From Bordetella genomosp. 1 (lineage in GTDB: Bacteria > Pseudomonadota > Gammaproteobacteria > Burkholderiales > Burkholderiaceae_B), in the NCBI RefSeq assembly GCF_002261335.1, contig NZ_NEVL01000003.1:1178001-1242000 (forward strand): 64,000 nucleotides of DNA, read 5' to 3'. Every line of letters begins with the position of its first letter. Within the stretch, counting starts at the first letter, position 1. Positions 8,879 through 25,482 of the stretch are shown piece by piece. Made by a program: the position numbers and the translations under genes. The notes under the pieces were generated by a model. The model had not been told where the DNA came from. It saw only the letters and a program-made list of their open reading frames with translations, and did not search any database.

Positions 8879-8984
8879 GAAAGCCTCCCGGATCGCTCGT
8901 GCGGATCAGCAGCAGACTAACGACATTCCACGCCACGACAAGCCACCCGGGACAACACCGACACCCTCACTTCGCCCCTTGGAC

Positions 8985-9320
8985 AAAGGTGTCAGACTGC
9001 ATTTTTCAAAGGCGTCAGACTACATTTTTCTGGTCCGACAACCCCGGAAACAAAGGTGTCAGACTACATTTTCAATGGCCAGGAAAAATGCAGTCTGACA
9101 CCGTTTCCGGTAACGCCACCGCCTGTGTCGCCCAGCGGGGGACCGCGCTGGAGAAAAGGAGTCAGACTGCAATTTCACGGTGGACGAGGTGAAAAACAAA
9201 GGTGTCAGACTGCAATTTCCGGGTGGCCGAAAATGTAGTCTGACACCTTTGTTTGGGAGAGGACGGCCAAGAAAAATGCAGTCTGACACCTTTGTTTGAA
9301 AATGCAGTCTGACTCCTTTT
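8985..9320. repeat. Repeat cluster A: nine copies of the GTCAGACTGCA element
   Basis: The 458-bp gap between comEC and the RidA gene carries nine copies of a 22-26-base element with core GGTGTCAGACTGCATTTT. Plus-strand copies start at 8985, 9008, 9052, 9154 and 9197; minus-strand copies lie at 9084-9106, 9230-9254, 9272-9297 and 9299-9320. Variants carry GGAGTC, GGCGTC, TACATTT or TGCAATTT. Some copies are 43-44 bp apart and some abut (23-27 bp). No coding sequence is credible here. The function is unknown. Confidence 0.9.
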
Positions 9321-9336
9321 ACGGCGAGGTCGCCGC

Positions 9337-9831
9337 TCAAGCCGACACCAGCGCCGTGATCTCGATCTCGGCCCAGCAGCGTCCCGGCAGGCTGCTCACG
9401 CCGATGGCGCTGCGGGCGGGGCGTGGCATTGCCGGAAAGACGACCTCCAGCACGGCGGAGGCGCCGTCGAGCACGGCGCTGTGCGCGTCGAACTCGGGGT
9501 CGCTGCGCAGATAGCCGCGCAGTTGCGTGATGGCACGCACCCGGCCGAGGTCGCCGCCGCACGCCTGCGCCAGGGCGGCCAGTCCGGAGAGCGCGGCCTG
9601 GGCGCACGCGTCCCTGGCCGGCGCGAGATCGGCGCCGGGCTCGCAGCGCCCGATGAGGGGCACACCATCGCGGCGGCTGGCCTGACCGCTGATGCATACC
9701 AGGATCGCGCCAGCAAGCGCGGTTGCGCTATACGGCGCGTAGCTGCCGCGCGCCTGCGGCGCTGCGGGCAGCTCCAGCCCCGCGGCCGCGAGCCGCGCCG
9801 CGACCGCATCGTTGCGCATCAAACCATCCAT
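9337..9831 (-). CDS. RidA/YjgF/Rid-family protein
   Basis: Trimeric Rid-family protein of 164 residues. RidA proper hydrolyses reactive enamine/imine intermediates to keto acids and ammonia. The family's C-terminal signature is visible (VFPAMPRPARSAIGVSSLPG, with the arginine that binds substrate carboxylate in RidA, then AEIEITALV). The N-terminal 20 residues are longer than in E. coli RidA. I chose the ATG at 9831 because GGGGAG precedes it by 5 bases; the ATG at 9819, which overlaps the PhzF stop, is the alternative. It is co-transcribed with the PhzF and Bug genes. Confidence 0.8.
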   Translation of the reverse strand: MDGLMRNDAVAARLAAAGLELPAAPQARGSYAPYSATALAGAILVCISGQASRRDGVPLIGRCEPGADLAPARDACAQAALSGLAALAQACGGDLGRVRAITQLRGYLRSDPEFDAHSAVLDGASAVLEVVFPAMPRPARSAIGVSSLPGRCWAEIEITALVSA

Positions 9832-10712
9832 CGGGTCTCCCCGCTGAGCCAGCAGCCCGGGCCGTCGCCGCGCGCGCGCAGCTGGATCGCCGAGGGCGAG
9901 CCCATCGCCACGCCCTGGCGCACGGTGCGGATGCCGCCCCCGGGCAAGGCACCCACGCTGTCGAGATAGCCCCACAAGGCGGCCGCCGCGATGCCGGTGG
10001 CCGCGTCTTCCGGGTAGCCCGAAGCTTTGGGGAACTGGCGCGCGGAGATCGCTTCGCCGTCCTGCGAATACGGGTAGAGCCCGGTCGAGTCGATCGCCTC
10101 GCAAAGCGACCGCATCGCCGAGAAATCGGGCGTCAGCGCGTCGAGCGCCACCGCATCCGGCATGCGCACGAGCGTCTTGACGCGGCTGGTGCTGGCATTG
10201 ACGGCATGCAGGGGCCCTGTCGCCGCATCGATCCCCAGCACGTCACCGATCGCCCGGACCTGCTCGGGCGTGAGGGCGTCGACGCGCACCGCCGGCTGCG
10301 AGATCCAGGTCCAGCCTCGCGCCTCGTCCCATTCCACGTCGACGCTGCCGCTGAGCGTCTGCACGCGCGCCGTGGCCGTGGTCCACATCCCCCACTGCCG
10401 CAGCGCCCACAGCGTTCCGACCGTCGCGTGGCCGCACATCTCCATCTCGTGGCCGGGCACGAAGAAGCGCAGCCGGCACAGATGCCCCGGCGCATCCGCG
10501 GGCAAGACGAATGCGGATTCGTGGCCGTGATGCGCGGCCAGCGCCTGCATGTCGGCCGCCGTCATGCCCTGTGCATCGGCCACCAGCGGAACCGGGTTGC
10601 CGCCGAGCCGGTCGGCAGCGGGATCGACGAACACGCGCAGCAGCGCCGCCTCGCCCGCCGCGGGCAGCGGTCGGACGTGAAGGGAACGAGGGTCAGTCAA
10701 GCTGTACTCCAA
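9819..10712 (-). CDS. PhzF-family isomerase/epimerase
   Basis: A 297-residue PhzF-fold protein (diaminopimelate-epimerase-like). The family landmarks are GGNPVPLV near the N-terminus, HESAFV with the catalytic-type glutamate, and the FFVPGHEMEMCGHATVGTLWAL block, with AATGIAAAALWGYL near the C-terminus. The reaction is unknown outside phenazine clusters, and no phenazine genes are present. The reading frame is open to a TTG at 10712 that lies inside the last codons of the upstream Bug gene; a second in-frame TTG follows shortly after. The true start is uncertain, but translational coupling is likely. Confidence 0.8.
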   Translation of the reverse strand: MEYSLTDPRSLHVRPLPAAGEAALLRVFVDPAADRLGGNPVPLVADAQGMTAADMQALAAHHGHESAFVLPADAPGHLCRLRFFVPGHEMEMCGHATVGTLWALRQWGMWTTATARVQTLSGSVDVEWDEARGWTWISQPAVRVDALTPEQVRAIGDVLGIDAATGPLHAVNASTSRVKTLVRMPDAVALDALTPDFSAMRSLCEAIDSTGLYPYSQDGEAISARQFPKASGYPEDAATGIAAAALWGYLDSVGALPGGGIRTVRQGVAMGSPSAIQLRARGDGPGCWLSGETRWMV

Positions 10713-11658
10713 CTTTGGTGATGAGATCGCCCCAGAAGGCGAGATCGTGCGTGACGGCCTGGGTCAGGGCCGCGCTGGTGTCGGGACGCACGTCCACACC
10801 TTTGGCGGCGAGGTCGGCGGCAATGGCGGGCTCGCGCAGGGCCTTGTTCAACGCTTCATTCATGCGCGCCACGACCGCAGGCGGCGTGCCTTTGGGAAAG
10901 GCGAGCCCGTACCACAAGGTCTGCGTGTAGTCCGCCATGCCTTGCGATGCGAAGGTGGGCACGTTCGGCAGGATCGAGGTGGGCGCGGTCGTCGCCACGG
11001 CGCTCAGCTTGCCGCCTTGCACGAACGGCGCGAGGCCGACTGGGTTGTCGAACATGATGTCGACCTGGCCGCCGATCAGATCGGTGTAGGCCGGCGCCGC
11101 GCCGCGATACGGCACGTGCGTCAGGTCGAGCTGCTTGTCCTTGGCGAACATGGCGCCCAGCAGATGCGACACGGTGCCGGCGCCCACGGACGCGTAGGTG
11201 CCATTGCCGCGCGCCTTCATCGCCTGCACCAGCGCGGCCACGTCAGTGGCTTTCAACGACGGATGGACGGCCAGCACATACGGCGAGGTACCGATGAAGC
11301 CGACATAGTCGAAATCCTGGGCCGGCCGGAACGGCAGCTTCTTGTACAGGCTGGGGCTGAGCGCCATGGTGCTGGTGGTGACCGCCAGCGCCGTGTAGCC
11401 GTCCGGCTTGGCGCGGGCTGCCTGGCCCGAGCCCACGGTGCCACCGGCGCCGCCGGCGTTCTGGATCACCACCGTCTGGCCCAGTTCGCGGCTGAGCGTG
11501 GGCTGCAGCGCCCGCACCACCAGATCGGTGCCCCCGCCCGGCGGAAACGGCACGATGACGGTGACCGGCTTGTCCGGCCAGGACTGCGCCTGCGCCGCGA
11601 CCGGCAGCAGTGCGAATGCCATGCACTTCAATAGTGCATGCGAGAACGTACGTCGCAT
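10693..11658 (-). CDS. Bug/TctC-family solute-binding protein (with signal peptide)
   Basis: Periplasmic tripartite-tricarboxylate receptor, 321 residues. It has a signal peptide (RRTF then a hydrophobic stretch ending AQAQS) and the Bug hallmarks WPDKPVTVIVPFPPGGGTD, VVIQNAGGAGGTVG and VPYRGAAPAYTDLIGGQVD. The start at 11658 has AGGGGAA 6 bases upstream. No TctA/TctB membrane partners are nearby, as is usual for the expanded Bug family in Bordetella-like genomes. It leads a bug-phzF-ridA operon divergent from an AraC regulator. The ligand is unknown, probably a carboxylate. Confidence 0.88.
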   Translation of the reverse strand: MRRTFSHALLKCMAFALLPVAAQAQSWPDKPVTVIVPFPPGGGTDLVVRALQPTLSRELGQTVVIQNAGGAGGTVGSGQAARAKPDGYTALAVTTSTMALSPSLYKKLPFRPAQDFDYVGFIGTSPYVLAVHPSLKATDVAALVQAMKARGNGTYASVGAGTVSHLLGAMFAKDKQLDLTHVPYRGAAPAYTDLIGGQVDIMFDNPVGLAPFVQGGKLSAVATTAPTSILPNVPTFASQGMADYTQTLWYGLAFPKGTPPAVVARMNEALNKALREPAIAADLAAKGVDVRPDTSAALTQAVTHDLAFWGDLITKVGVQLD

Positions 11659-11690
11659 GAAAATTCCCCTTGTGGTTGTCGAATGCCTGC

Positions 11691-11755
11691 ATCGTAGGCA
11701 CTCCAAGGGGCGTGGGCGAACCCGAACGCGACACACGGCCGTCCAAAACGCGACA
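11691..11755 (-). promoter_or_regulatory. Candidate AraC-type operator pair and promoter for the Bug operon
   Basis: Two perfect 9-base direct repeats, AACGCGACA (plus-strand view), lie at 11725-11733 and 11747-11755, 22 bp apart, a typical spacing for AraC/XylS-family half-sites. Read on the minus strand they lie immediately upstream of a possible -35 (TTCGCC, 11715-11720), an 18-base spacer and -10 (TACGAT, 11691-11696), giving a leader of about 25 bases to the Bug start. The proximal half-site abuts the -35, the arrangement of class II activation. Sites are seen; function is inferred. Confidence 0.55.
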
Positions 11756-11861
11756 GCGCGCGTCGGCCTTGCCAGAACGGCTGCGGCCGTCGATACTGAT
11801 TTTTCCTGTGTGCCCGGGCAAGACGCCCTGCGCCGCCGAGTCCTCTCCGAGGCGCTGCATC

Positions 11862-12683
11862 ATGACGCGTACCGTCCCACTGTCTTCCAAGCTCGACCTC
11901 ATCGCCCGGACCGGCTTCGCCCTGTCGGCCAGCCGCCAGCCCCGCTACGCCTTCAATTGGCACAAGCATGACTGCGCGATGCTGCTCTGGCCGCGGGCGG
12001 GCGCGCTCGACACCGCGTGGCGCGACGATGACGGCGCGCGGCGCAGCAGCCGGCTGGTGCGGGGCCAGGCGTTGCTGTTGCCCTCGCATGTCGAGCACAG
12101 CACGCGCGCGCAGAGCGTTTCACAGCAACACGGCGAGCTTTATCTGTCGCCGGACCTGCTGCGGGCGTGCAGCGCCGAGGGCGTGCTGCAGCTCGACGGC
12201 GCGGCGCAGTCCATGCTGGACGCGCTTTGGAAGCCGGCCCTCTCGGCCCAGGCCCAGCCCGCGTTGATCGCGGCGCTGATCGCGCAGCTCGACAGCAGCC
12301 GTCCGGCGCCACTCGCCGCCACGCCGACGCATCTGGCGCGGCGTTGGGTCGACGCCTTGCGCCAGCAGCTCGACGACGGCCACCCCGCGCCCACGGTCGC
12401 CGAGTCCGCCATCGCGCTGGGCGTCTCCACCCGCACGCTGCAACGCGCCTGCCTCGACGCCTATGGCCTCGCCCCCGTCGCACTGCGCCGCATCCTCGTC
12501 GCCCAAATCGCACGCCACCGCATCGCATTGGGCGAGGCGCCGGCGCTGGTGAGCGCCGAACTCGGCTTTGCCAGCAGCGGCCATCTCGGCCGCCTGCTGC
12601 GCGCCATCGACACCCGCCACGCCCTGACCGACCTGGCGCAGGCAGCCACCCCATTCGACGAAGATCCCGCGCGGCTTACCTGA
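11862..12683 (+). CDS. AraC-family transcriptional regulator
   Basis: A 273-residue regulator with an N-terminal cupin-like ligand region (RYAFNWHKHDCAMLLWPRAG, and ALLLPSHVEHS) and a C-terminal AraC double helix-turn-helix (about residues 165-255; SAIALGVSTRTLQRACLDAYGLAPVALRRIL, then GFASSGHLGRLLR). The HxH and RGQALLLPSHVEH pattern matches AraC proteins with a small-molecule-binding cupin. I start at 11862 because the residues upstream are low in homology-like character. It is divergent from the Bug-PhzF-RidA operon, its probable target. Confidence 0.85.
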   Translation: MTRTVPLSSKLDLIARTGFALSASRQPRYAFNWHKHDCAMLLWPRAGALDTAWRDDDGARRSSRLVRGQALLLPSHVEHSTRAQSVSQQHGELYLSPDLLRACSAEGVLQLDGAAQSMLDALWKPALSAQAQPALIAALIAQLDSSRPAPLAATPTHLARRWVDALRQQLDDGHPAPTVAESAIALGVSTRTLQRACLDAYGLAPVALRRILVAQIARHRIALGEAPALVSAELGFASSGHLGRLLRAIDTRHALTDLAQAATPFDEDPARLT

Positions 12684-12747
12684 CCTGTCGCACCACCGCT
12701 TTGATCGCCACTTGGTGCGCACCCGCCTCTCGACAAGGGAGAAGGGG

Positions 12748-12940
12748 AAAAGGTGTCAGACTGCATTTTCCCGTTCCAGCCTCAGCACCGAAAAGGAGTC
12801 AGACTGCAATTTCTCGGTCGGGCTTCAACACCGTAATGGTGTCAGACTGCATTTTTGCGGTGAGCCTTCCCCACCCGAAATGGAGTCAGACTGCATTTTT
12901 TTGGTGCGCCTTCAACACGGAAATGGAGTCAGACTGGCAT
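12748..12940 (+). repeat. Repeat cluster B1: tandem array with a 43-bp period
   Basis: Five same-strand copies of the GTCAGACTGCA element start at 12748, 12791, 12834, 12878 and 12921, a spacing of 43-44 bp. The last copy is degenerate (AGACTGGCATTG). The roughly 20-base stretches between copies are also related: they share CGGT...G.CTTCAACACCG-like sequence (for example CTTCAACACCG after copy 2 and CTTCAACACGG after copy 4). The real unit is therefore about 43 bp, half strongly and half weakly conserved. It sits downstream of the AraC gene with no coding sequence. Confidence 0.85.
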
Positions 12941-13042
12941 TGCCGGCGCCAGAGTCGCCCTGCCCGCACAGCGTCGACGGCACGCTGATGGGCCTCGCGC
13001 GGGCCGACGACACCTGGCTGCACGCGCCTGACAGCTTTTCGG

Positions 13043-13153
13043 AAAATGCAGTCTGACACCTTTTCAATGAGGCGCTGCACGACACGTTCGCCCAAAAACA
13101 AAGGTGTCAGGCTGCATTTGGCTTGGCCGGAAAATGCAGTCTGACACCTTTGT
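13043..13153. repeat. Repeat cluster B2: three further copies, mixed orientation
   Basis: Copies of the dispersed element lie at 13043-13064 (minus), 13100-13119 (plus, variant with GTCAGGCTGCA) and 13131-13153 (minus). The plus/minus pair at 13100/13131 can form an imperfect hairpin. The cluster lies just downstream of the convergent DUF695 gene and may act as a terminator. Apart from B1 and B2, the 504-bp gap (12684-13187) shows no credible gene. Confidence 0.8.
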
Positions 13154-13187
13154 CTGGAAGATTCCCGCGATGCCCGCGGGAGGTTCG

Positions 13188-13631
13188 TCAATGCAGCTGG
13201 TCGGAACCTTCCGGCTGCAATTCCGACAGCGCGCGCCAGTCGGGATCCTGGAACATGCGCAGCTGGATCGGGTAGACCGGATGGCCCGCCAAGCACAGAT
13301 TGAATGCATCCAGGAACGCTTCGACGTTGGGCGTGTAGAAACGCCATTCCTTCATGTTGTTCCCGGTCATGCAGGCGACCTGCACGCCGACGTCGGAGTT
13401 CTCGAAGCCCTTTTCGATGGCGTCTTCGAAATTGTTGGTGCTCTGTTTGTCTTCCTCGTTGGGCATGCCGGATTCGATGCCGGAGTATGGCCAGGAAACG
13501 ATGACCAGGTTCTCGTTGGCCTGACGATCGGCCTCCGGCGGCAGGCCGGTACGGAAGCGAACGATGACCGAGCGTCCGTCGACGTGTGCTTCACCCACCG
13601 CCCACAGATCGCCTGGAAAAATGCTGTTCAT
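13188..13631 (-). CDS. DUF695-like protein
   Basis: A 147-residue soluble protein without signal peptide or membrane segment. It resembles DUF695 proteins: an N-terminal beta-rich part (VDGRSVIVRFRTGLP), an acidic central part (EDAIEKGFENSDVGVQVACMTGNNMKEWRFYT) and a C-terminal FQDPDWRALSEL segment. DUF695 has no established biochemical function. I chose the ATG at 13631, with AGGA 8 bases upstream, over the ATG 27 bases further up. It is isolated between repeat clusters B and C, and less GC-rich than its neighbours, which could hint at acquisition. The family call is moderate. Confidence 0.65.
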   Translation of the reverse strand: MNSIFPGDLWAVGEAHVDGRSVIVRFRTGLPPEADRQANENLVIVSWPYSGIESGMPNEEDKQSTNNFEDAIEKGFENSDVGVQVACMTGNNMKEWRFYTPNVEAFLDAFNLCLAGHPVYPIQLRMFQDPDWRALSELQPEGSDQLH

Positions 13632-14127
13632 TGAATGAATCCTGTGAAGATGCCTCACCTGTCGGTTCGGCGCGCATTACGGAAAAACCTTTGACGCATG
13701 CCAGGATGAAGAAGCTGCGACGGGTGGAGCTCATATCCCGGCGTGGCGCGACGGCGGCTGCTGCGGGCGCATCGGAAGATGAAAACAACGTGTGCTCGCG
13801 ACCGCGCCGATCACCTCCGGCATGCGGCAAAGGTTGCATTGGATCGAACGAGACGGGAGTCTAGCGCAACTCGTCGGCCAAAAAATCGACGAACCGTAAC
13901 CCTTCGATTTTCGTGACGCTCTTCTGCGCGCGCCGTGATCAGCACTCCGCCGCTCGACCCACCGCGCGCCCGCTGGCGTGATTCCGCATGCGGCGTGTGA
14001 GCGTCGCCGCGCGCTCGAATGCGGCCGAGGTATCAGTATCGAGAAAAGCGAGGTGCCTGTGACAAATGGGAGCGCCCGCGAGGGCCTGCCCCTGGGCTTC
14101 ACTTAAATAACAGCCACCCGCAGCAAA
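13632..14127. other. Gap without recognisable gene
   Basis: About 500 bp between the DUF695 gene and repeat cluster C. Short open frames on both strands are arginine/serine-rich with no family resemblance, poor start sites and no ribosome-binding signals, so I do not call them. The base composition is lower in GC than the flanking genes. Promoter sequences of the DUF695 gene must lie at its left end. Confidence 0.5.
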
Positions 14128-14184
14128 AAAAGGAGTCAGACTGCATTTTTGCCGAAGCACGAAAATGCAGTCTGACTCCTTTTT
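14128..14184. repeat. Repeat cluster C: inverted pair forming a perfect hairpin
   Basis: One plus copy (14128-14150) and one minus copy (14162-14184) of the GGAGTC variant face each other across an 11-base spacer, giving a self-complementary stem of about 22 bp with A-rich and T-rich flanks. On either strand the transcript would end in a T-run, so the pair could serve as a bidirectional terminator downstream of the chemoreceptor gene. Confidence 0.85.
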
Positions 14185-14191
14185 AGGAGGT

Positions 14192-14222
14192 TGCTCCGGC
14201 TGTCACTGTGGCAGCCGGAGCA
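14192..14222. terminator. GC-rich hairpin downstream of the chemoreceptor gene
   Basis: TGCTCCGGCTG at 14192-14202 pairs perfectly with CAGCCGGAGCA at 14212-14222 across 9 bases. It lies about 75 bp past the minus-strand chemoreceptor stop. There is no immediate T-run, so it may not be a classical intrinsic terminator by itself; the cluster C hairpin follows on the same strand. Confidence 0.45.
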
Positions 14223-14251
14223 CGCCTTGCCGGCAAAGCAGCAGAACGACG

Positions 14252-14272
14252 AGCGGCAAGCGGCAAGCGGCA
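14252..14272. repeat. Three tandem copies of a 7-base unit (AGCGGCA)
   Basis: AGCGGCA is repeated three times head to tail just after the stop of the chemoreceptor gene (minus strand). It is a non-coding short tandem repeat that could vary in copy number by slippage. No function is evident. Confidence 0.7.
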
Positions 14273-14297
14273 AGGCGCTCGGCTCAGCGCGCGAGGC

Positions 14298-15926
14298 TCA
14301 TGCCCAGCCGAGCTTGCGCACGTCGCCCGCGTTCTCGAGCGCGCCGGACGACGCGTCGATGACCTGGCCGTTGCCGACCTTGAACGCAGAAACGGCACGC
14401 ACCAGTTCGGCGGCCTGATCTTGCATCGAGCCCGCCGCGGCGGCCGATTGTTCGACCAGCGCGGCGTTCTGTTGCGTGACCTCGTCCATCTGCGCAATGG
14501 CCGTGTTGACCTGATCCACGCCGCGGGCCTGTTCGTCGGACGCGGTGGTGATTTCGCCCATGATGTCGGTCACGTGCTTCACGGAGGTGACGATTTCGTC
14601 CATCGTGGCGCCGGCACGCTCGACCTGGGCCGCGCCCACGCTGACCTTGCCGGCCGAGTCGACGATCAGCTCCTTGATCTCCTTGGCCGCATTGGCGCTG
14701 CGCTGCGCCAGCGAGCGCACCTCGCCCGCGACCACCGCGAAGCCCTTGCCCTGCTCGCCCGCACGCGCAGACTCCACCGCCGCGTTCAAGGCGAGGATGT
14801 TGGTCTGGAAGGCGATGCTGTCGATGACCGAAACGATCTCGGAGATCTTGTTCGAACTGGCCGAAATCGCACTCATGGTGTCGACCACCTCGGCCACCGC
14901 AGCGCCGCCCCGCTGGGCAACGGCGGACGCGCTGGCCGCCAGCTGATTCGCCTGGCGCGCGTTGTCGGCATTCTGCTTCACGGTCGACGCCATCTGCTCC
15001 ATCGATGCCGCGGTTTCCTCGAGCGAGGCCGCCTGCTCTTCGGTGCGGGCAGAGAGGTCCGTGTTGCCGGCAGCGATCTCGGCGGAGGCCGTCGAGATGT
15101 TCTCCGCGCCCGCGCGGATGCCGGTCACCGTGCGTGCCAGGCCGTCCTGCATGCGCTTGAGCGCGTCGAACAACCGGCCGATTTCATTCTTCGAGCCGGC
15201 CGCGATGCGACAGGTGAGGTCGCCTGCCGCGATCCGGTCGAAAATCTGGGCGGCCTGGCCGAGCGGCAAGAAGACGCGCCGATTGAACATGAAGTACAGG
15301 CCCGCGATGAGCAACAGCACCACCAGGCCGGCGGCCTGCATCGCAACTACGGCCGTACGAATATCCGCCGACGCGGTGTCGGAGATCTTCTGCCCCATGC
15401 GGCTGGTGTAGTCCACGTAGGCCAGCAGCGCCTTGGTAAACACCGTGCCCATCGGCGTGACCTTCTTGTCGTTGAAGTCGACGGCCTGCTGCAGATTGCC
15501 CGCGAGTGCCGCGGCAATCATGGGATCGTAGGCTTCCTGGCGATAGGCCTCATAGGTCTTCAGCATCTCGCGGTACAGCGGACCGCCTTCCTCGGAGGTG
15601 TCGGGTGTGGACTTCAAACGCTTGATATAGGCATCGGCGCGCTCGTTGTAGGGCAGCGCGCGCTGCGCCACTTTCTTGGCGCCTTCGATATCGCCGTCCT
15701 TCATGGTCGCGATCGCGTTGACCGCGGCCAGGCGCGCGCGCAGCAGATCGCTCGCAAGCCGATGGGCCTGGTCGCCTCGCACGACGTTGTTGTCGAGCAG
15801 CTCCTGCACGTCGGTCTGATGGCCCTGCAGCATCTGATAGCCGGCGATGCCGGTGGCCAGGAACAGGAGGAAGAACACGCCCAACGCCGATGAAAGCAGG
15901 CTGCGTATGCTGAGGTTGGTGAACAT
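14298..15926 (-). CDS. Methyl-accepting chemotaxis protein
   Basis: Membrane chemoreceptor of 542 residues. TM1 is at about 9-31 ([21 protein letters not shown]), followed by a four-helix-bundle periplasmic sensor of about 155 residues, TM2 at about 190-212, HAMP to about 265, and a cytoplasmic signalling hairpin with methylation-type segments ([16 protein letters not shown]). The highly conserved tip reads [38 protein letters not shown]. There is no C-terminal CheR-docking pentapeptide. The start at 15926 has GAGG 6 bases upstream. The sensor is of the Tar-like 4HB type; the ligand is unknown. It is not linked to other chemotaxis genes here. Confidence 0.92.
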
Positions 15927-16313
15927 GATGCCTCGATTTCTGAAAACGGATGGGGCGCCGGGTACCCGGGAAGACATGAAACGAGCGGCACGCTGATCGG
16001 CGCGCCCTCACTTCGCGGCCCATGCATTTTCGGCGCTTCGTGTGCGTTCCGATGGGAGCCGCAACGGGCTCAAGACCGCGCAATTCAACGCATTCTTCGC
16101 GCTCCGTTTTCAACGCGATGTCAGCGCAAGTGTGATCTCCCCCTTTCGCAACGCTCCCCTTTCAAAACGCTTTCACGGCCAAACGCACGCGCAGCCAGCC
16201 GCGCCTGCGGCGGCGTGGCACCTCGCCAAATACCGTTACACCCTGCCGCACCCGGCGCGCGGCGAAGCGATTACAACGCTTACACAAACCTGAAAATGTC
16301 TGATGGAGACCGC
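15927..16313. other. Divergent promoter gap, chemoreceptor / DASS transporter
   Basis: A 387-bp non-coding gap between two divergent genes. I looked for a sigma-28-type (TAAA...GCCGATAA) flagellar promoter for the chemoreceptor and did not find a convincing one. No repeats of the dispersed family are present. Nothing else was recognised. Confidence 0.5.
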
Positions 16314-17843: not shown

Positions 17844-17884
17844 GAGCCGACGGACCCGGCCGGCTTCCCGCGCCCGGCCGCTCC

Positions 17885-18116
17885 AAACAAAGGTGTCAGA
17901 CTGCATTTATCCAGGCAGCGCCGATTGGATAAATGCAGTCTGACACCTTTGTTTTGGGTGGCGCCGGCGGGGAAAAATGCAGTCTGACACCTTTGTTCAC
18001 CTTTGTTTTGGGCCGCGCGGGTTGCATAAATGCAGTCTGACACCGTTGTTTTGAGCGGCGCTGCCCGGATAAATGCAGTCTGACTCCTTTTTTATATGCA
18101 GTCTGACTCCTTTTTT
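17885..18116. repeat. Repeat cluster D: six copies including a perfect 29-bp hairpin
   Basis: Between two convergent genes lie six copies of the dispersed element. The first two form a perfect inverted repeat: arms 17885-17913 and 17926-17954, 29 bp each, loop of 12 bases, with the match extending past the core into an ATCCA segment. Further minus-strand copies lie at about 17973-17997, 18027-18052, 18070-18092 and 18094-18116, plus a partial copy (CACCTTTGTTTTG) near 17998. T-runs follow several copies, so the cluster probably ends both flanking transcripts. Confidence 0.88.
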
Positions 18117-18123
18117 GGGGAGA

Positions 18124-19032
18124 TCAGATCAGGGCGGCGCCTTTGCGGCGAGTGAATTGGGTGAGGGAGCGCAGGGCCAGGGCGTGCATGGCGGCGACGG
18201 CGGGGGGGAGGGTTTCTTCCTTGCGGGTCAGGACGCCGACGATGCGTTCGACCACGGGTTCGGCCAGCGGGACGAAGGCCAGGCCGCTGCCGGTGGCGGG
18301 GCGCGCGAGGACGGGCAGCACGGTGACGCCCAGGCCGCCGGCGACGCTGGCCAGCAGAGAGGCGCGGTTGGACACGACCATGGCGGGATCGTCGATGGCG
18401 CTGCCCAGGTCGCGGTTCTTCAGGGTTTCGAAGGTGGCGTTGCCGATCAGGCGCTCCTCGGCCAAGGCCGACCACGGCACCGCGCCGCGTCGGCGCGCGA
18501 GGGGATGGCCCTTGCGGCACACGATGCCGAAGGCGTCGCGCGCGACGGGCGTGAAGGCCACCTCGTCGGTGCGAGGCACCTGCCCCGCCACGCCCACCTG
18601 CACCTCCCCCGACAACACCAGTCGATGCACGTCGGGCGACGGTTCGTCGATGGCGCGGATGCGGACGTCGGGATGGCTGCGCGCGTAACGCTCGAGCAGA
18701 CGAGGCAGCCACTCGTCGGCCAGCGACGGCATCACCGCCAGCGCGACGGGGCCTTCGTGCCCCTTGCCCAGACGCAGCGCCGCGTCCAGCACGCGATCGT
18801 GGGTGGCGAGCAGTTCACGGAACAACGGCGCCACGGCCAGGCCGAGCGGCGTGAGCTGGGCGCGCTTGCCCGGCTCGAACAGCGGCGCCCCCAGTTGCTG
18901 CTCCAGGTCCTGCATGGCCGCCGACACGGCGGCCTGCGATCGGAACGTGCCCTGCGCGGCAAGGCGGAAACTGCCATTGTCGGCCGCCAGCAGAAACTGG
19001 CGCAGGTGCTGGATCTTCAGCGGTGTCGGCAT
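18124..19032 (-). CDS. LysR-family transcriptional regulator
   Basis: A 302-residue LysR protein. The N-terminal winged helix is at residues 4-62 (LRQFLLAADNGSFRLAAQGTFRSQAAVSAAMQDLEQQLGAPLFE), followed by a LysR substrate-binding domain. It is divergent from the DUF1185-hydrolase-Bug operon (19427 onward), its likely target, across a 394-bp gap. The inducer is unknown. The start at MPTPLK is chosen by position of the HTH; the frame extends 57 codons upstream without family resemblance. Confidence 0.88.
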   Translation of the reverse strand: MPTPLKIQHLRQFLLAADNGSFRLAAQGTFRSQAAVSAAMQDLEQQLGAPLFEPGKRAQLTPLGLAVAPLFRELLATHDRVLDAALRLGKGHEGPVALAVMPSLADEWLPRLLERYARSHPDVRIRAIDEPSPDVHRLVLSGEVQVGVAGQVPRTDEVAFTPVARDAFGIVCRKGHPLARRRGAVPWSALAEERLIGNATFETLKNRDLGSAIDDPAMVVSNRASLLASVAGGLGVTVLPVLARPATGSGLAFVPLAEPVVERIVGVLTRKEETLPPAVAAMHALALRSLTQFTRRKGAALI

Positions 19033-19354
19033 GGTTGCGGTCTCAACTGTTGAACTCGGACGACTCGGGCGATCTGGCTGCCCGCCTCGTGGGTGTGGAC
19101 GGGACCTGCGGGCCTGTGCTGCGGTCCGCCGTCGCGCTACTGCCTCGCCACCGGCCACAAGGCCGCCGGCACGCCAGATTGCGGAAACACCGGGATTGCG
19201 CAAACAGCGCTCGGGCAGCGTCTAGCCGCCCGCCGTGTCTGGCGCGACGCCCCGAGCGGCCTCGCGCGCGGTCATTCCGCATCGCGATGCCCCCTCACTG
19301 GTGCACCGGGACCGCCACAAAATTCGGATTTCCTGAAGTTAGCTTACGTTAATT

Positions 19355-19371
19355 TGGATTGTCAAAATCCA
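19355..19371. promoter_or_regulatory. Candidate LysR-type dyad in the divergent gap
   Basis: TGGATT-GTCAA-AATCCA is a 6-bp-arm inverted repeat in an AT-rich island (about 19320-19375) within otherwise GC-rich DNA, 56 bp before the DUF1185 start. A minus-strand TTGACA-like hexamer overlaps it. Position and symmetry suit a LysR operator and promoter region; this is an inference. The rest of the gap 19033-19426 shows no gene. Confidence 0.4.
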
Positions 19372-19426
19372 CGGCCTCCACCAACAATGAGCCATCTTTA
19401 CAGCCTCAGTTCGATGGAGCGGCGAA

Positions 19427-20020
19427 ATGTCCCTGCAAGTGCGCAAAGTGGTTACCTATGTCGAGAAGACCCTGATCGAAGGCGGTCGGGAGGCGGGCAA
19501 GCCGCTCGTGATGATCATCGCCGCGGCGGTGGTGCGCAATCCGTGGGCGGGCCTGCCGTTCCAGGAGGATCTGCGGCCCGGCATCCTGGAAGCGGCGCCG
19601 CCCCTGGGCGAGCTGCTGGTGGCGGAAATCCTGCGCGAGGCGGGCTCGGCCGAGAACGTCGAGGCGTATGGCAAGGCGGCGGTGGTCGGCACGGCCGGCG
19701 AGGTCGAGCACGCCTCCGCGCTGATCCACACCCTGCGCTTTGGCAACGCCTATCGCAATGCGGTGGGCGGCACCAGCTACCTGAGTTTCACCAACATGCG
19801 CGGCGGCCCGGGCTGCGTCATCTCCGTGCCGCTGATGCATAAGCTCGACGAAGGCCTGCGCTCGCATTACCTCACGGTGCAGACCACCATCAATGACGCG
19901 CCGGCGCCCGATGAAATCGAGGTCGCCCTGGGCGCCGCCACGTCGGGCCGGCCGCACCATCGCATCGGCAACCGCTACTCCGACCTGCAGGAGCTGGCGC
20001 AAGAGGCGGCGCAGAAATGA
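19427..20020 (+). CDS. Amino acid synthesis family protein (DUF1185)
   Basis: A 197-residue protein of the PF06684-type family, recognised from MIIAAAVVRNPWAG, GKAAVVGTAGEVEHASALIHT and GGTSYLSFTNMRGGPGC-like blocks. The biochemical role is not established; the family name comes from suggested links to amino acid metabolism, and members often sit beside Bug receptors and hydrolases in Burkholderiales. The start has GGAG 8 bases upstream. It is the first gene of an operon with the overlapping hydrolase gene (4-bp overlap, ATGA). Confidence 0.75.
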   Translation: MSLQVRKVVTYVEKTLIEGGREAGKPLVMIIAAAVVRNPWAGLPFQEDLRPGILEAAPPLGELLVAEILREAGSAENVEAYGKAAVVGTAGEVEHASALIHTLRFGNAYRNAVGGTSYLSFTNMRGGPGCVISVPLMHKLDEGLRSHYLTVQTTINDAPAPDEIEVALGAATSGRPHHRIGNRYSDLQELAQEAAQK

Positions 20021-20805
20021 ACACGCACTCGCGGCGTTCCGGCCAGGGCGAACCGCTGGTGCTGCTGCACGGCGTGGGGCTGGACCTCACGCTGTGGGAC
20101 GACCTGGCGCCGTTGCTGGAGCCTGACTTCGACGTCCTGCGCTACGACCTGCTCGGACACGGCGCGTCGACGCCACTGCGCGGACCGGCGGCCATCGCCG
20201 ATTTCATCGCCCAGCTCGACGCGGTGCTGGACCAGGCCGGCTGGCGCGACGCGAACGTGGTCGGCTATTCGATGGGCGGGCTGATCGCGGGCGCCTACGC
20301 CGCGGCGCGGCCGGACCGGGTGCGCCGCCTGGTCTTGCTCAACACCGTGTTCCGCCGCACCGCCGAAGAAAGCGCTGCCGTGCAGGCCCGGCTGGCCGCC
20401 GCGGCAACCCAGGACGTCTATGCCGCCGCCGAAGTGTCGCTGGCGCGCTGGTTCACGCCGGCGTTCCAGGTTCGCAGACCGGAACGCGCGGCGCAGGTGG
20501 GTCAGCGGCTGCTGGACAATGACCGTAGCAGCTTCCTGTCGGCATACGCCCTGTTCGCCAACGGCGACCCGATCCTGACGCAGGCCGCGGGCGAGGTGCG
20601 CTGCCCGGCGCTGGTCATCACCGGCGAGGACGACGTCGGCTCGAATCCGCGCATGACGCGCGAACTCGCGCAGGCCCTGCCCGACGCGAGCGCCGTGGTC
20701 GTGCCCGGCCAGCGGCATATGCTGCCGGTGGAGCAGCCCGAGGTGGTCGCCGCCGCATTGCAAGGCTTTTTCCTGGCGCACAAGGCCGAATCGTCCGCCG
20801 CATAG
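20017..20805 (+). CDS. Alpha/beta-fold hydrolase (3-oxoadipate enol-lactonase-like)
   Basis: Serine hydrolase of 262 residues. The oxyanion region is LVLLHGVGLDLTLWDDL, the nucleophile elbow GYSMGG, and the acid in ITGEDDVGSNP and histidine in VPGQRHMLPVEQPE complete the triad. The layout resembles PcaD-type lactonases and related esterases. The substrate is unknown; neighbours suggest hydrolysis of an ester or lactone imported or bound via the Bug protein. It is translationally coupled to the DUF1185 gene. Confidence 0.82.
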   Translation: MNTHSRRSGQGEPLVLLHGVGLDLTLWDDLAPLLEPDFDVLRYDLLGHGASTPLRGPAAIADFIAQLDAVLDQAGWRDANVVGYSMGGLIAGAYAAARPDRVRRLVLLNTVFRRTAEESAAVQARLAAAATQDVYAAAEVSLARWFTPAFQVRRPERAAQVGQRLLDNDRSSFLSAYALFANGDPILTQAAGEVRCPALVITGEDDVGSNPRMTRELAQALPDASAVVVPGQRHMLPVEQPEVVAAALQGFFLAHKAESSAA

Positions 20806-20849
20806 AGACGATCGGCGCAAGTCCACCGACGGTGGAGATGGAGACAAAG

Positions 20850-21821
20850 ATGGACCGCAGAACCCTCATCAAGACCCTGGCGGCATTGAGCGCCGCCCCC
20901 CTCGGCGCGACCCTGACGCGCATGGCGGCTGCCAACGAAGCGCCGCTGCGCGTGATCGTGCCGTTTCCGCCGGGCGGCGGCACGGACGTGCTGGGCCGCG
21001 TGATCGCGGCCGCGCTGAGCGACACGCTGCAGCGTTCGGTGGTGGTCGAGAACAAGCCCGGCGCGAGCGGCATGCTCGGCGCCGACTACACCGCCAACGG
21101 CGCGAAGGATGGCAGCATCCTGCTGTTTGCGGGCCTGGTACCCTCGGTGCGCTACTACGCGCTGCCGCCCGAACAGGTGCTGCAGCGGCTCGCGCCCGTG
21201 TGCCACATCGCGCGCTCGCCCTACATGATCGCGGTCAACGGCGACCTGCCCATCAAGAATCTCGGCGAGCTGATCGCGCGGGCCAAAGGCGAGCCCAAGG
21301 GGCTGACCTTCGGCTCGCCCGGCAACGCCACGCCCCAGCACATCGCCACCGAGCTGCTGCAGGCCGCCTGCGGCATCGACATGCTGCACGTGCCCTACCG
21401 CGGCACCGGGCCGATGATGACCGACCTGCTCGGCGGCCAGATCCAGGTGGTGGTCGCGACGGTCGCCGCCGTCGAGCCCTACCTCAAGAGCGATCGGCTG
21501 CGCGTGCTGGCCGTCACGAGCGCGCAGCGCCTGGCCAAGTATCCCGACATCCCCACCGTGGCCGAAAGCGGCTATCCGGGCTTCTCGGCGCAGATCCAAT
21601 TCGGCACCTACTGCGCGGCCGGCACGCCGGAAGCCACGGTCGCCGCGCTGAATCGCGGCGTCAACGCGGCGCTCAAGACCGAGGCGATCCACGCCAAGCT
21701 GGCCGAACAGGGCTTCCAGCCCACCGGCGGCACGCCGGCACAACTGCAGGACGCGCTGCTCGCGGAGATCCGCGACGTGGCCGGACTGGTCAAGGCCGGC
21801 AAGGTGCGGGTGGATCTGTAA
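20850..21821 (+). CDS. Bug/TctC-family solute-binding protein
   Basis: A 323-residue periplasmic receptor. The N-terminus MDRRTLIKTLAALSAAPLGA is a twin-arginine-like export signal (RRTLIK), unlike the ordinary Sec signals of the other three Bug proteins here. Family blocks: LRVIVPFPPGGGTDVLGR, VVVENKPGASGMLGADY, VPYRGTGPMMTDLLGGQ and YPDIPTVAESG. The start at 20850 has GGAG 6 bases upstream. It is probably the third gene of the LysR-controlled operon. Confidence 0.88.
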   Translation: MDRRTLIKTLAALSAAPLGATLTRMAAANEAPLRVIVPFPPGGGTDVLGRVIAAALSDTLQRSVVVENKPGASGMLGADYTANGAKDGSILLFAGLVPSVRYYALPPEQVLQRLAPVCHIARSPYMIAVNGDLPIKNLGELIARAKGEPKGLTFGSPGNATPQHIATELLQAACGIDMLHVPYRGTGPMMTDLLGGQIQVVVATVAAVEPYLKSDRLRVLAVTSAQRLAKYPDIPTVAESGYPGFSAQIQFGTYCAAGTPEATVAALNRGVNAALKTEAIHAKLAEQGFQPTGGTPAQLQDALLAEIRDVAGLVKAGKVRVDL

Positions 21822-21835
21822 GGACGGCCGGGCGG

Positions 21836-21899
21836 CAGGGCCGGACCGCTCGACAGGAGGTCGGCCGACTGGGCCGCAAGGCCGGACCGCTCGGCAGGA
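21836..21899. repeat. Two imperfect direct repeats, 41-bp period
   Basis: A segment with core GCCGGACCGCTCG(A/G)CAGGA occurs at about 21836-21858 and again at about 21877-21899, just after the Bug stop. This is a short duplication in a 259-bp gap (21822-22080) that otherwise shows nothing. It is not related to the GTCAGACTGCA family. Confidence 0.6.
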
Positions 21900-22080
21900 T
21901 CGAACGGCCCGGTCGCTCGATTATGGCGGCGCGGACGGCGCAACGCCGCAGGCGCATTGAAGCATCCAGTCCGGCCTGCCGCCCCGCCCGTGAACTCGTA
22001 TCCGTCCGCGCGGCAGCCGGCTTCCGCCCGGCCGCCAATCGTGGCATGCTGCGCGCCAGTCCACTCGTCCGCCCCGCCAC

Positions 22081-22512
22081 ATGCCGAACCTGTTGCCGCG
22101 TATCCTCGACTTCCTGCTGATGGCCGGCGCCGCCGCGCTCTACGGTGGCTGCCTCACCGCGTCGCTGACCACCGGCACGCTCGGCTGGGCGCTGCCCGTC
22201 GCCCCCTACGTTTATGGGACGCGCGACTTCTACCTCGACGCCGTCGTGGCGGGCCTGGCCGGACTGGCACTGCTCGTGCTGGTCGAGCGCATTGGGGCCG
22301 TGCGCGGGTCGGCGGTGCTGCGCGCGCTGGCCTTCTTCGCCGCCACGCTCGTCGCACTGTGTCTCGCCCCGCCCTCGCCCCAGGTGTTCGGCAACACCTG
22401 GGCGGCCGGCGAGGCCTTCAGTGAACTGTTCCTGGCGCAATGGCGCCTGGTGCTGCCCATCGCATTGGCCGCGCTGGTCTTGCGCACGCTATTGCGCCGC
22501 ACGCGTCACTAG
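22081..22512 (+). CDS. Small integral membrane protein, unknown function
   Basis: A 143-residue hydrophobic protein with four probable membrane spans (FLLMAGAAALYGGCLTASL; YLDAVVAGLAGLALLVLV; VLRALAFFAATLVALCLA; WRLVLPIALAALVLRTLL) and a basic C-terminus. I do not recognise the family. The frame has membrane-protein composition rather than that of an antisense shadow, but there is no clear ribosome-binding site before the ATG, so the start is tentative. Confidence 0.6.
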   Translation: MPNLLPRILDFLLMAGAAALYGGCLTASLTTGTLGWALPVAPYVYGTRDFYLDAVVAGLAGLALLVLVERIGAVRGSAVLRALAFFAATLVALCLAPPSPQVFGNTWAAGEAFSELFLAQWRLVLPIALAALVLRTLLRRTRH

Positions 22513-22657
22513 AGACGCGTGCCGAGCCAAGCCGCGTCGCTGGCGCCGAGCCGCATCGCGCGATGCGCGGCACAGCCTCACGATCGCCCCGCCGCCACGG
22601 CGCACCTGCATTTCGTGGCATGCTAGTCGGCATGCCGCTCACGACGTCCAGCCCGCC

Positions 22658-23269
22658 ATGACCCATTCCGCGTCCGCCCCCGCGCCCTGCATCGGCGTAC
22701 TGCTGGCCGCCGGCGCGGGCCTGCGCTATCGCCAGGCCGGCGGCAGCAGCCACAAGTTGCTCGCGCAACTGCCGGACGGCACGCCGGTCGCGCTGCGCAG
22801 CGCGCAGGCGCTGCACGCGGTCACGCCCGACCTGCTGGTCATGGTCGGGGCCAACGACACGGAGCTCGCGCCGTTGCTGCGGGCCATTCCCTGCCAGCAG
22901 GGCACCGCACCGGCGGGAGCCGAGGCGGGCATGGGCGCCACGCTCGCGGCCGCCGCCCGCTGGTTGCTGGCGCATGCGGCAGACCACACTCACGCGCTGG
23001 TCGCGCTCGCCGACATGCCCTGGATCGCACCCGCCACGCTGCGTGCGGTGGCCGCTGCCGATCCGGCGCTGGAGATCGTAGCCCCTGCGTACGCGGGTCG
23101 TCGGGGCCATCCGGTAAGGTTCGCACGCGCGCTGTGGCCCGCGTTGGCGGCGCTGTCGGGCGACCAGGGCGCGCGTGCGCTGCTGCAACGCCACGGCGTG
23201 CACGAGATCGCGGTGCACGACGCCGGCATCCTGCGCGACGTGGACCTGCCGCAGGATCTCACGCGCTAG
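22658..23269 (+). CDS. mocA: MocA-like molybdenum cofactor cytidylyltransferase
   Basis: A 203-residue MobA/MocA-fold nucleotidyltransferase. The N-terminal LLAAGAGLRYRQAGG...HKLL loop, AGMGATLAAAARWL and the metal-site ALADMPWIAP match the MocA branch, which transfers CMP to Mo-molybdopterin for xanthine-oxidase-family enzymes. That fits the paoABC genes about 6 kb downstream, whose E. coli counterparts use the cytosine dinucleotide cofactor. The start at 22658 is chosen because residues upstream lack family resemblance. It ends convergent with the RibD-like gene. Confidence 0.75.
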   Translation: MTHSASAPAPCIGVLLAAGAGLRYRQAGGSSHKLLAQLPDGTPVALRSAQALHAVTPDLLVMVGANDTELAPLLRAIPCQQGTAPAGAEAGMGATLAAAARWLLAHAADHTHALVALADMPWIAPATLRAVAAADPALEIVAPAYAGRRGHPVRFARALWPALAALSGDQGARALLQRHGVHEIAVHDAGILRDVDLPQDLTR

Positions 23270-23312
23270 CGCGCGAGACCGGCGCCGCCCGGCCGATCGA
23301 CGTGCCGTCGCG

Positions 23313-24092
23313 TCAGCGCGCGCGGCCCGCGCCCGCGTCCGCACGCCGCTCCACCGCATACCGCAGCCACACCACGCCCGCGCGCCGTACCTCGCACGAC
23401 AGCAGCCGCAGCTTGCGCCCGCGCGCCGGCAGGAAATCGGGCGCGGCGTCCTGGCATTCGAAGATGCTGGGAATGCCGGACAGCCCGTCGATGCCGGGGA
23501 ACACCAGCAGGCTGATCTCGTCGATCAGGTCCGCGCGCAGGAATGCGCCGTTGATGATGCCGCCACCCTGCAGCATCAGGGACGACACCTGGAAATCCGC
23601 CTTCAACGCCGCCAGGGCCGCATGCAGGTCGGCGCCGTCCGCGCCGGCGAACACATACGAGACGCCGCGTTCGCGCAGTTGTGCCAGATACGCGTCCGAC
23701 ACCCGCTCTGCCAGGATCGCCACGGCGTGGTCGTCGCCGATGGCCGGGCCGGAGTACGCCAGCCGCCCCTTCGGATCGACGGCGATCGCCAGGCCCCTGC
23801 CCTCGCGCCGGCCGACGTGGCTGCGCCGCGAGCGCGCCGGCGGCGCATCGCCGGCTTCGCCGCGCGACGCGGCCCGCGCGTCGATCTGCGGCAACACGCT
23901 CTGCATGGTCTTGCGACCCACCAGCCAGCCCTCGCCGCCGATCTCGGCCGCGGCCTCGTCGTAGACCGACAGGATCAGATTCGCATCGTCGTCCTCGGCG
24001 GCCGGCGTCCAGCGATCGGTGATCAGTCGGCCATCGATGGCGCTCACCATGTGGCAGACGATCCTGGGGCGGCTTTCGTAACGGGTGCTCAT
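23313..24092 (-). CDS. RibD C-terminal/dihydrofolate-reductase-fold protein
   Basis: A 259-residue NADPH-dependent reductase-fold protein. SAIDGRLIT near the N-terminus, GWLVGRKTMQ and the C-terminal LMLQGGGIINGAFLRADLIDEISLLVFP block are RibD_C landmarks. Free-standing members are reductases of unassigned substrate; a riboflavin role is unlikely without rib genes nearby. It lies 25 bp downstream of the MFS gene on the same strand and is probably co-transcribed. Confidence 0.8.
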   Translation of the reverse strand: MSTRYESRPRIVCHMVSAIDGRLITDRWTPAAEDDDANLILSVYDEAAAEIGGEGWLVGRKTMQSVLPQIDARAASRGEAGDAPPARSRRSHVGRREGRGLAIAVDPKGRLAYSGPAIGDDHAVAILAERVSDAYLAQLRERGVSYVFAGADGADLHAALAALKADFQVSSLMLQGGGIINGAFLRADLIDEISLLVFPGIDGLSGIPSIFECQDAAPDFLPARGRKLRLLSCEVRRAGVVWLRYAVERRADAGAGRAR

Positions 24093-24117
24093 TGCACGAC
24101 TCCAAAGGAAAAGGCGA

Positions 24118-25311
24118 TCAGGGGCGCGCGCGCAATGCCAGGCCGCTGATCGCCGCCGAAGCCAACGCGCTCACGGCGCTGATCAGAAACACCACGCGCA
24201 GCCCGCTCACGCCGGCCAGCAGGCCCAGCAGGGGCGTGGCCAGGCCCAGCGCGAGGTCGAGGAACGCCGTGTAGGCGCCCATCGCGAGCCCGCGGCTCTG
24301 GCGCGCGACCCGGCTCACCGCCACCACGCCCAGGCCGGGGTAGACCAGCGAATAGCCCAGTCCGGTGAGCGCGGCGCCGATCAGGGCCACCACCGGTCCG
24401 TCCGCGAGCCAGACGCAGGCCTGGCCGGCCGCCTCCACCAGCACGAACACCAGTGCCACGCGGGCGCCGCCGAGGCGGTCGGGCAGATGGCCCAGCACGA
24501 TGCGCGCCAGGATGAACGTGGCCGCGAACAGACTGAACGCCAGCCACACCGGGGCCCAGCCGCGCTCGGAAAAATACAGCGCGATGAAGGCCGTCATGGC
24601 GCCAAAGCCGATGCTGCTGAACGCGAGGCCGACGCCCGGCAACCACACCGCGCGCAACACGGCCGCGGGCGCGGCCTGGGCGTCGCGCGGATGTGGCGCC
24701 ACGCCGGGCCTGCGTGCCAGCAGCGCCATCGCCAGCAACGGCACGCCGACCGTGGCGAGGCCGATGGCGCCGAAGCCGAAGACGTCGAACAGGCCCGATC
24801 CCAGCGGCGCGCCCAACGCGAACGCGCCGTACATCGCCGTGCCGATCCAGGCGATCACCTTGCCGGCGTGCGCCCCGTCGACCGAAGCCAGGCCCCAGGC
24901 AAGCGCGCCGGTGATGATGAAGCTCTCGGCCGCGCCGAGCACCGCGCGTCCGCCGATCAGGATGGCGACGGACAGCCCGGGCCGGGTGGCCGCGGCGAGC
25001 GAGGCGAGATAGATCAGCCCCGACAGCGATGCGACCACGAACCCGATCATCATGGTGCGCTTCGCGCCGTGCGTGTCGGAGAACGTGCCCGACCCGATGC
25101 GCGAGACCAGCGAGGCCGCGAACTGGCTGCCGGTGACCAGCCCGACCTGCAGCGTGCCCATCCCGAGATCGTGATGCACGTGCAGCGGCAGCACGGGCAG
25201 TGCCAGCCCGATCACCAGAAAGGCGAGAAACACGGCGGACATCAGGGGCAGCAGCGTGCGGGCGAGGGGCAGGCCGGCATCGGGCGGCGCGGCGGCGATT
25301 GTGTTGTTCAT
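24118..25311 (-). CDS. MFS transporter (YhhS-like efflux family)
   Basis: A 397-residue, 12-span major facilitator. Loop 2-3 contains RIGSGTFSDTHGAKRTMMIG, a variant of the MFS GxxxDRxGRR motif. FSERGWAPVWLAFSLFAATFILARIVLGHLPDRLGG marks the second half. It resembles proton-driven efflux proteins of the YhhS/arabinose-efflux type. It is divergent from a LysR regulator and followed by the RibD-like gene. Confidence 0.85.
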   Translation of the reverse strand: MNNTIAAAPPDAGLPLARTLLPLMSAVFLAFLVIGLALPVLPLHVHHDLGMGTLQVGLVTGSQFAASLVSRIGSGTFSDTHGAKRTMMIGFVVASLSGLIYLASLAAATRPGLSVAILIGGRAVLGAAESFIITGALAWGLASVDGAHAGKVIAWIGTAMYGAFALGAPLGSGLFDVFGFGAIGLATVGVPLLAMALLARRPGVAPHPRDAQAAPAAVLRAVWLPGVGLAFSSIGFGAMTAFIALYFSERGWAPVWLAFSLFAATFILARIVLGHLPDRLGGARVALVFVLVEAAGQACVWLADGPVVALIGAALTGLGYSLVYPGLGVVAVSRVARQSRGLAMGAYTAFLDLALGLATPLLGLLAGVSGLRVVFLISAVSALASAAISGLALRARP

Positions 25312-25353
25312 GCTTGCAAGAGGCGAGCGGTGCGTCGGGCAGGCGTCACGGGC

Positions 25354-25379
25354 AAATTGCAGTCTGACACCTTTGTTTT
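25354..25379 (-). repeat. Single copy of the GTCAGACTGCA dispersed element (copy E)
   Basis: A lone minus-strand copy with an AAATTGCAGTCTGACACC variant lies in the 171-bp divergent gap between the MFS and LysR genes, about 45 bp upstream of the MFS start. It is the right-most copy; none was seen from here to the end of the window. Placed inside a promoter region, it could influence MFS expression. Confidence 0.85.
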
Positions 25380-25482
25380 GGGGAAATCGTTGCTTGCGCA
25401 GCGGCTTTTGCGTATTGTCCTCAGCACAAGACTGTTCGATAAGACGGCATATTCAGAAGGCACACATGAGGGAAATTCATTA

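Follow-up and report, generated by a model that had tools for sequence, protein, structure and literature searches.

The stretch of DNA analysed here, a window of 64 kb (G000:C4:1178001-1242000) in the 5.6 Mb, 7-contig genome of Bordetella genomosp. 1 (G000), carries between its genes a short dispersed repeat, GGTGTCAGACTGCATTTT. Over the whole 64 kb we found 25 copies at no more than 3 mismatches, spanning 8988-25371, against a chance expectation of 0 (100 dinucleotide shuffles, largest count 0). A degenerate 26th copy, GGAGTCAGACTGGCATT at ~12925, has a one-base insertion and lies 43 bp past the preceding copy. An earlier reading of this DNA from its letters alone (the sequence-only reading) had counted 26 copies, one of them degenerate, in five clusters, and the matches bear out both the count and the places. 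Its two subfamilies, with T or A in GG(T/A)GTC, were recovered as well, 57 exact copies of GGAGTCAGACTGCA being present genome-wide.

No strand is assigned to clusters 1 to 4. Cluster 1 (8985..9320) holds nine copies in the order +++-++--- between a ComEC-like gene (6410-8851, reverse strand) and a RidA/YjgF-like gene (9337-9819, reverse strand). Cluster 2 (12748..13153) has seven copies (++++-+-) and the degenerate eighth at ~12925; its first four copies are 43, 43 and 44 bp apart, and it is enclosed by two convergent genes, 11862-12683 (forward, HTH_18 domain) and 13188-13631 (reverse, DUF695). Cluster 3 (14128..14184) is an inverted pair (+30-) belonging to the GGAGTC subfamily, which folds into a long, terminator-like hairpin (14132-14179; -27.7 kcal/mol). 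The six copies of cluster 4 (17885..18116; +-----) are spaced by 38, 44, 53, 43 and 23 bp and lie between a gene of the sodium:sulfate symporter family (16401-17843, forward, with a possible open reading frame start at 16215) and a LysR gene (18124-19032, reverse). Cluster 5 (25354..25379) consists of one reverse copy, with an MFS gene (24118-25311, reverse) on one side and a LysR gene (25390-26382, forward) on the other. In 8900-25500 no Rfam family matched above its gathering score, which rules out a structured RNA family as the identity of the repeat.

The sequence-only reading had taken the repeat to be confined to 9.0-25.4 kb. This is true inside the window and fails for the genome, where the window 18-mer occurs in 359 copies over several contigs at no more than 2 mismatches (191 forward, 168 reverse; reversed-pattern control, 0). 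The analysed stretches contain 367 copies at no more than 4 mismatches (351 at no more than 2) in 66 clusters; these counts retain an opposite overlapping pair 5 bp apart (C4:555728/555733), probably a genuine copy plus a match that arose by chance at the limit of 4 mismatches. The intergenic position of all copies, claimed for the window, holds more widely. With a purpose-made codon-usage gene finder, and an earlier set of 326 copies that included the window, 0/326 lay wholly within a predicted gene, despite 79% of the same DNA being predicted as coding. Clusters lie at a median of 52 bp from 3' ends (n=65) and 159 bp from 5' ends (n=49); of 33 co-directional settings, 28 have the cluster closer to the gene 3' end. 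Viral contigs gave 0 exact matches to the 17-base repeat core, the GenBank phage collection not being part of that search, and cluster 2 had no match in plasmids; within this scope, derivation of the repeat from a virus or a plasmid is ruled out.

No mobilising transposase lies in the window, as had been noted from the sequence. The search proposed with that remark, for a Y1 transposase gene bordered by the same repeat, did find one: a single-copy gene elsewhere in the same genome, ~860 kb away (G000:C4:319625-320338). It contains the only PF01797 match in the genome at E <= 0.001 (C4:319673-320008; 49.9 bits against a cut-off of 23), in an open frame that ends at 320338 and is 237 amino acids long from a TTG start or 232 from the first ATG. 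Upstream of the gene stand three forward copies of the repeat, 43 bp from one to the next; the four copies downstream are reverse and spaced by 44, 43 and 43 bp. The gene thus has the flanking terminal inverted repeats (TIRs; +++ gene ----) that mark the TIRYT/TIRtron kind, and its stop codon falls within the first downstream copy, a partial gene overlap outside the window. The protein carries the motifs MPNHVHLL, GTLWESR and CRYIELNP and ends in ...RRGRPRKENAV; its RGRPRK tail resembles an AT-hook. The NCBIfam model REP_Tyr_transpos (REP-associated tyrosine transposase) is matched at 82.6 bits, barely over a cut-off of 80, and the best match among solved structures is 4er8 (TnpArep, E 0.00076). 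By motifs and length the transposase fits the TIRYT class, that is, TnpAY1 subclass 2.1 (Y1/HUH, RAYT superfamily), since its NHVH, W and YIELNP motifs and its length match the row for that subclass, which lists NHVH, W[EQ], YIELNP, a median of 238 amino acids and a C-terminal extension (Quentin et al., 2018; PMC6006769). The TIRYTs of Di Nocera et al. are, according to the part of that paper we draw on, the probable counterpart of subclass 2.1 (PMC6006769).

The surroundings of the gene and its distant relatives offer some further observations. The transposase lies in a segment of ~10.9 kb (L136:3319-14173, equal to G000:C4:309618-320472), with a forward copy at its left edge and the four reverse copies at its right edge, where the relative G163 (L210) has 549 bp of other sequence. 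The gene blocks between the repeat clusters match different places in G163; the segment could be a composite movement or an ordinary rearrangement. Seven forward copies at C4:308108-308383 are followed 4.4 kb on by four reverse copies at C4:312753-312900; between the two lie a single copy (309618) and a -+ pair (311806), and the polarity is the one seen in the arrays that flank the transposase gene. The transposase has a second relative (L212:621-1451, G000:C3, reverse strand) of ~28-33% identity that no longer has the HuH motif or the catalytic YIELNP; both in G000 and in G163 (L156) this relative keeps an RGRPRKK tail. The HuH motif is also absent from 16 of 17 weak-homologue loci L023-L039 (L023-L030 and L032-L039). 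These proteins may be DNA-binding proteins that have been domesticated, and perhaps they are not all of one kind.

The association of gene and repeat is seen beyond this genome. In a set of 110 loci with homologues of the transposase, which the G000 locus enters once, the gene is flanked by inverted repeats of 14 bp or longer at 47, versus 0 of 110 reversed controls, and a GGGG(A/T)C-like core occurs in 45 of these 47 (loose pattern, either strand), e.g. GGGGTCAGACTCGATTGATT and GGGGACAGGCTACTTT. G181, a genome of another genus, has two homologues at 57-58% identity, each with GGTGTCAGACTACGTTTT at both ends; the downstream TIR shares sequence with the end of the RGRPRK codons, an arrangement close to that in G000. 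A different TIR is found in G056, G020 and G145, in 9, 7 and 2 copies respectively, all sharing a contig with the gene. The window 18-mer itself was matched in 27 of 200 genomes of the family and is frequent only in G000 (359), G163 (30) and G181 (20), with 4 copies in G168 and 0 to 2 in the others; the reversed-pattern control gave one match each in 7 of the 200 genomes, so single matches are near background. Relatives of the transposase protein were found in 29 plasmid records, all below 60% identity.

A short unit made of two facing TIRs recurs in these genomes. In three stretches of G181 there are 11 inverted pairs less than 60 bp apart, 10 of them at 38/39 bp, and 11 pairs of elements in that genome have shared interiors (similarity 0.78-0.95, direct or inverted) within unrelated flanks (0.23-0.60). 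Two 56-bp elements of G000, C2:343211 and C2:349969, are 6.7 kb apart, differ by one base and have unrelated flanks; 38/39 is the commonest inverted spacing in G000 too, with mostly diverged interiors. Because interiors are shared within unrelated flanks in both genomes, the ~70-bp unit AACAAA-GGTGTC...GACACC-TTTGTT behaves as a miniature element, present at several sites in the manner of a miniature inverted-repeat transposable element. That the TIR units are moved by the transposase is what we infer from these sequences.

The larger arrays have a geometry of their own. They face inwards: of the 63 clusters with more than one copy, 48 open with a forward copy and close with a reverse one (2000 shuffles within clusters gave a mean of 15 and a maximum of 26), and 2 face outwards. 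Direct neighbours are spaced by 43/44 bp in 103 of 188 cases (82 of 172 once similar spacers are dropped), with further spacings at 23-26 and 33-37 bp. Inverted neighbours favour 20-22, 28-30, 36-41, 57-61, 70-73 and 80-82 bp, a minority standing at 25, 27, 48, 50, 104, 107 and 120 bp; a period of 10.6 bp fits the inverted spacings best (R 0.61), a value that none of 2000 jittered sets reached.

Our preferred explanation, to which we give a probability of about 0.85, is that the repeat is the TIR of a single-copy TIRYT, and that ~70-bp miniature TIR-TIR elements would be mobilised by it in trans. The family that the sequence-only reading could not name is then nameable by kind, as the terminal inverted repeats of a TIRYT. 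The transposase would recognise the TIR, act on pairs of TIRs and copy miniature units in trans into intergenic DNA; new units would land mostly just downstream of genes, and the inward-facing arrays may have been built by repeated insertion together with local duplication. Less certain parts of this scheme are that the TIR may be recognised as an extended double-stranded site, by a protein that ends in RGRPRK, and that bound protein, not hairpin folding, might keep the spacings in roughly helical steps.

Several observations weigh against this explanation. At 63 of the 110 homologue loci there is no inverted repeat of at least 14 bp within the search distance; 9 of the 63 have inverted repeats of 12-13 bp. 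The published TIR motif GGGGWSAS agrees with the window unit GGTGTCAG at 7 of 8 positions, and related loci carry GGGGTCAG and GGGGACAG. G163 has its 30 copies (no more than 2 mismatches) and only a homologue that has lost the catalytic motifs, so repeats can outlive the transposase or arrived otherwise. A clean empty site bearing a target duplication was looked for without success: the orthologous spots examined in G163 are repeat-free, but its intergenic DNA is too diverged for base-level comparison. The helical element is opposed by the inverted spacings off the ladder (25, 27, 104, 107 and 120 bp) and by direct spacings that are not cleanly helical: their best period is 9.1 when all are taken, and without those of 42-44 bp the periods 9.2 and 10.5 are equally good. 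For direct arrays, the helical reading is only partly supported.

G163 is the nearest relative examined in detail, and orthologous genes in it and in G176 are without repeats. Its copies (L152-L155) have different spacings, e.g. 24, 41 and 48-51 bp, and no intact cognate transposase was found there; they are possibly an orphaned, decaying family. Read by hand, synteny between G000 and G163 is broken at 9 of 12 repeat-bearing and 7 of 14 repeat-free block junctions, a count from which one multi-copy block was dropped and in which weak matches were kept, and which supports no claim.

The sequence-only reading had likened the family to repetitive extragenic palindromic (REP) elements moved in trans by a RAYT. 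The second half of that comparison stands in kind, as a Y1/HUH, RAYT-like transposase flanked by the repeat is present; the first half fails, and the units would be TIRs of the TIRYT branch instead. We consider it unlikely that this is a classical REP/REPIN system, with hairpin-forming REP units and an inverted doublet recognised as folded single-stranded DNA. Such a system would account for the 38/39-bp peak of the doublets, for the very stable folding of two of them (-35 and -27.7 kcal/mol) and for an intergenic family tied to a gene of the RAYT superfamily. A single unit with its flanks is unfolded, however (-0.5 kcal/mol, z +0.9, centroid open), and the consensus AACAAAGGTGTCAGACTGCATTTT contains neither GTAG nor GTGG, so that each unit is without its own hairpin and without a 5' GT(A/G)G foot. 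Compensatory changes, described as common where a REPIN of preferred spacing replicates as an inverted doublet (Bertels and Rainey, 2011; PMC3116915, in the part of it used here), are not seen: over 66 inverted pairs the arms agree at chance at position 12 (45 vs 44.5 expected), position 15 (47 vs 46.8) and position 18 (51 vs 48.5), and the interiors of 57 pairs have no extra pairing. At position 3, the T/A subfamily site, inverted arms agree in 58 cases versus 50.5; direct neighbours do so too (159 vs 143), as local relatedness would give. Even less probable is that selection keeps the clusters mainly for a role as bidirectional transcription terminators or as structures at mRNA 3' ends, with mobility being incidental. 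The closeness of clusters to 3' ends and terminator-like inverted pairs such as that at 14132-14179 speak for it, but avoidance of promoters would yield the same 3' bias, three clusters are single-copy, direct arrays occur without an inverted partner within 400 bp (C4:172652, 308108, 459146, 961687 and others), and the 8 terminator-like sites in 8850-25420 do not exceed the 9.7 of shuffled sequence. As a by-product, inverted pairs might act as terminators.

For the 43/44-bp direct arrays, old tandem duplication of unit plus spacer, with spacers that have since diverged, is a possibility that we take seriously while leaning against it as the general cause. Some arrays plainly arose in this way, 9 of 54 adjacent spacer pairs being at least 70% identical (e.g. 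C1:90297 onward and C4:456494 onward), and the remaining 45 pairs average 37% identity versus 34% for unrelated pairs (permutation p 0.04). That residual likeness is tiny, though, while the units are nearly invariant and the length stays at 43 or 44, and neutral divergence so complete should alter lengths too. Nested insertion with duplication of spacers left no trace in the comparison made, left and right spacers of the same level being alike at chance (13 pairs, 0.33 vs 0.345). Short constant repeats with differing spacers of fixed length recall a CRISPR array. That identity is exceedingly improbable and is ruled out by the copies in both orientations across 66 scattered clusters, which have several spacings and flank a transposase gene. 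Finally, the inward-facing units, the ~10.5-bp ladder of inverted spacings, the 43/44-bp direct steps over mostly unrelated DNA and the arms without the covariation of a folded hairpin raise the idea that these are binding-site arrays set by a molecular ruler, in which double-stranded DNA is recognised on one face of the helix and protein sitting on earlier copies fixes how far off new ones are placed, or kept. We regard this as doubtful; if true, it would be a spreading mechanism unlike the folded single-strand mechanism assumed for REPs.

A TIRYT that mobilises its TIRs in trans, the explanation that we favour, is of a kind already known (PMC3733652, as far as the part of it used here goes). 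TIRtrons consist of an HUH/Y1 transposase flanked by TIRs, some of them with the GGGGWSAS motif, and many TIRs are found as dimers or in clusters too in some genomes (Di Nocera et al., 2013; PMC3733652). The same account suggests that TIRYTs are perhaps less productive than RAYTs and calls TIR families "moderately abundant" (PMC3733652). The system described here shares with it the TIR-flanked HUH/Y1 gene and the many clustered TIRs. It differs in its ~360 copies and in a single unit that is not self-complementary; the 43/44-bp arrays, the inward polarity and the spacing ladder are not met in the portion of that account we drew on (PMC3733652). Like members of subclass 2.1, the transposase has the same motifs and a near-median length. 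Automatic and manual searches reported for that subclass found no associated REP-like sequences, whereas the gene here lies between arrays of its own repeat (PMC6006769, within the same part of the paper). With REPINs it has in common a doublet of preferred spacing, clusters beside the transposase gene and an intergenic location; it departs from them in a unit without a hairpin and in the lack of compensatory changes at three of four variable sites or in the interior (PMC3116915, same part). Its catalytic core is homologous to that of E. coli TnpAREP (PDB 4er8), which belongs to another subclass; unlike that protein, as far as the consulted part of its description goes, the transposase has a longer C-terminal part with the RGRPRK tail and no GTAG-hairpin substrate (PMC8266576).

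As far as our searches can tell, the family is set apart by its high copy number, its 43/44-bp arrays, its inward polarity and the absence of arm covariation at three of four sites. Literature searches found no paper on a bacterial repeat, judged by title, for the 11-base repeat core, and none for REP elements with helical spacing. The family would be an unusually large example of a little-studied bacterial mobile repeat. Subclass 2.1 is given as the second largest TnpAY1 subclass (PMC6006769, in the part used here), and its proteins would here have a substrate in hand: a single-copy gene, its TIR, ~360 naturally spaced copies, and relatives that are poor in the repeat or lack it. DNA recognition, insertion rules and any role in the host would thereby become directly testable. 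The case suggests that the TIRYT branch is likewise able to give rise to a large population of repeats.

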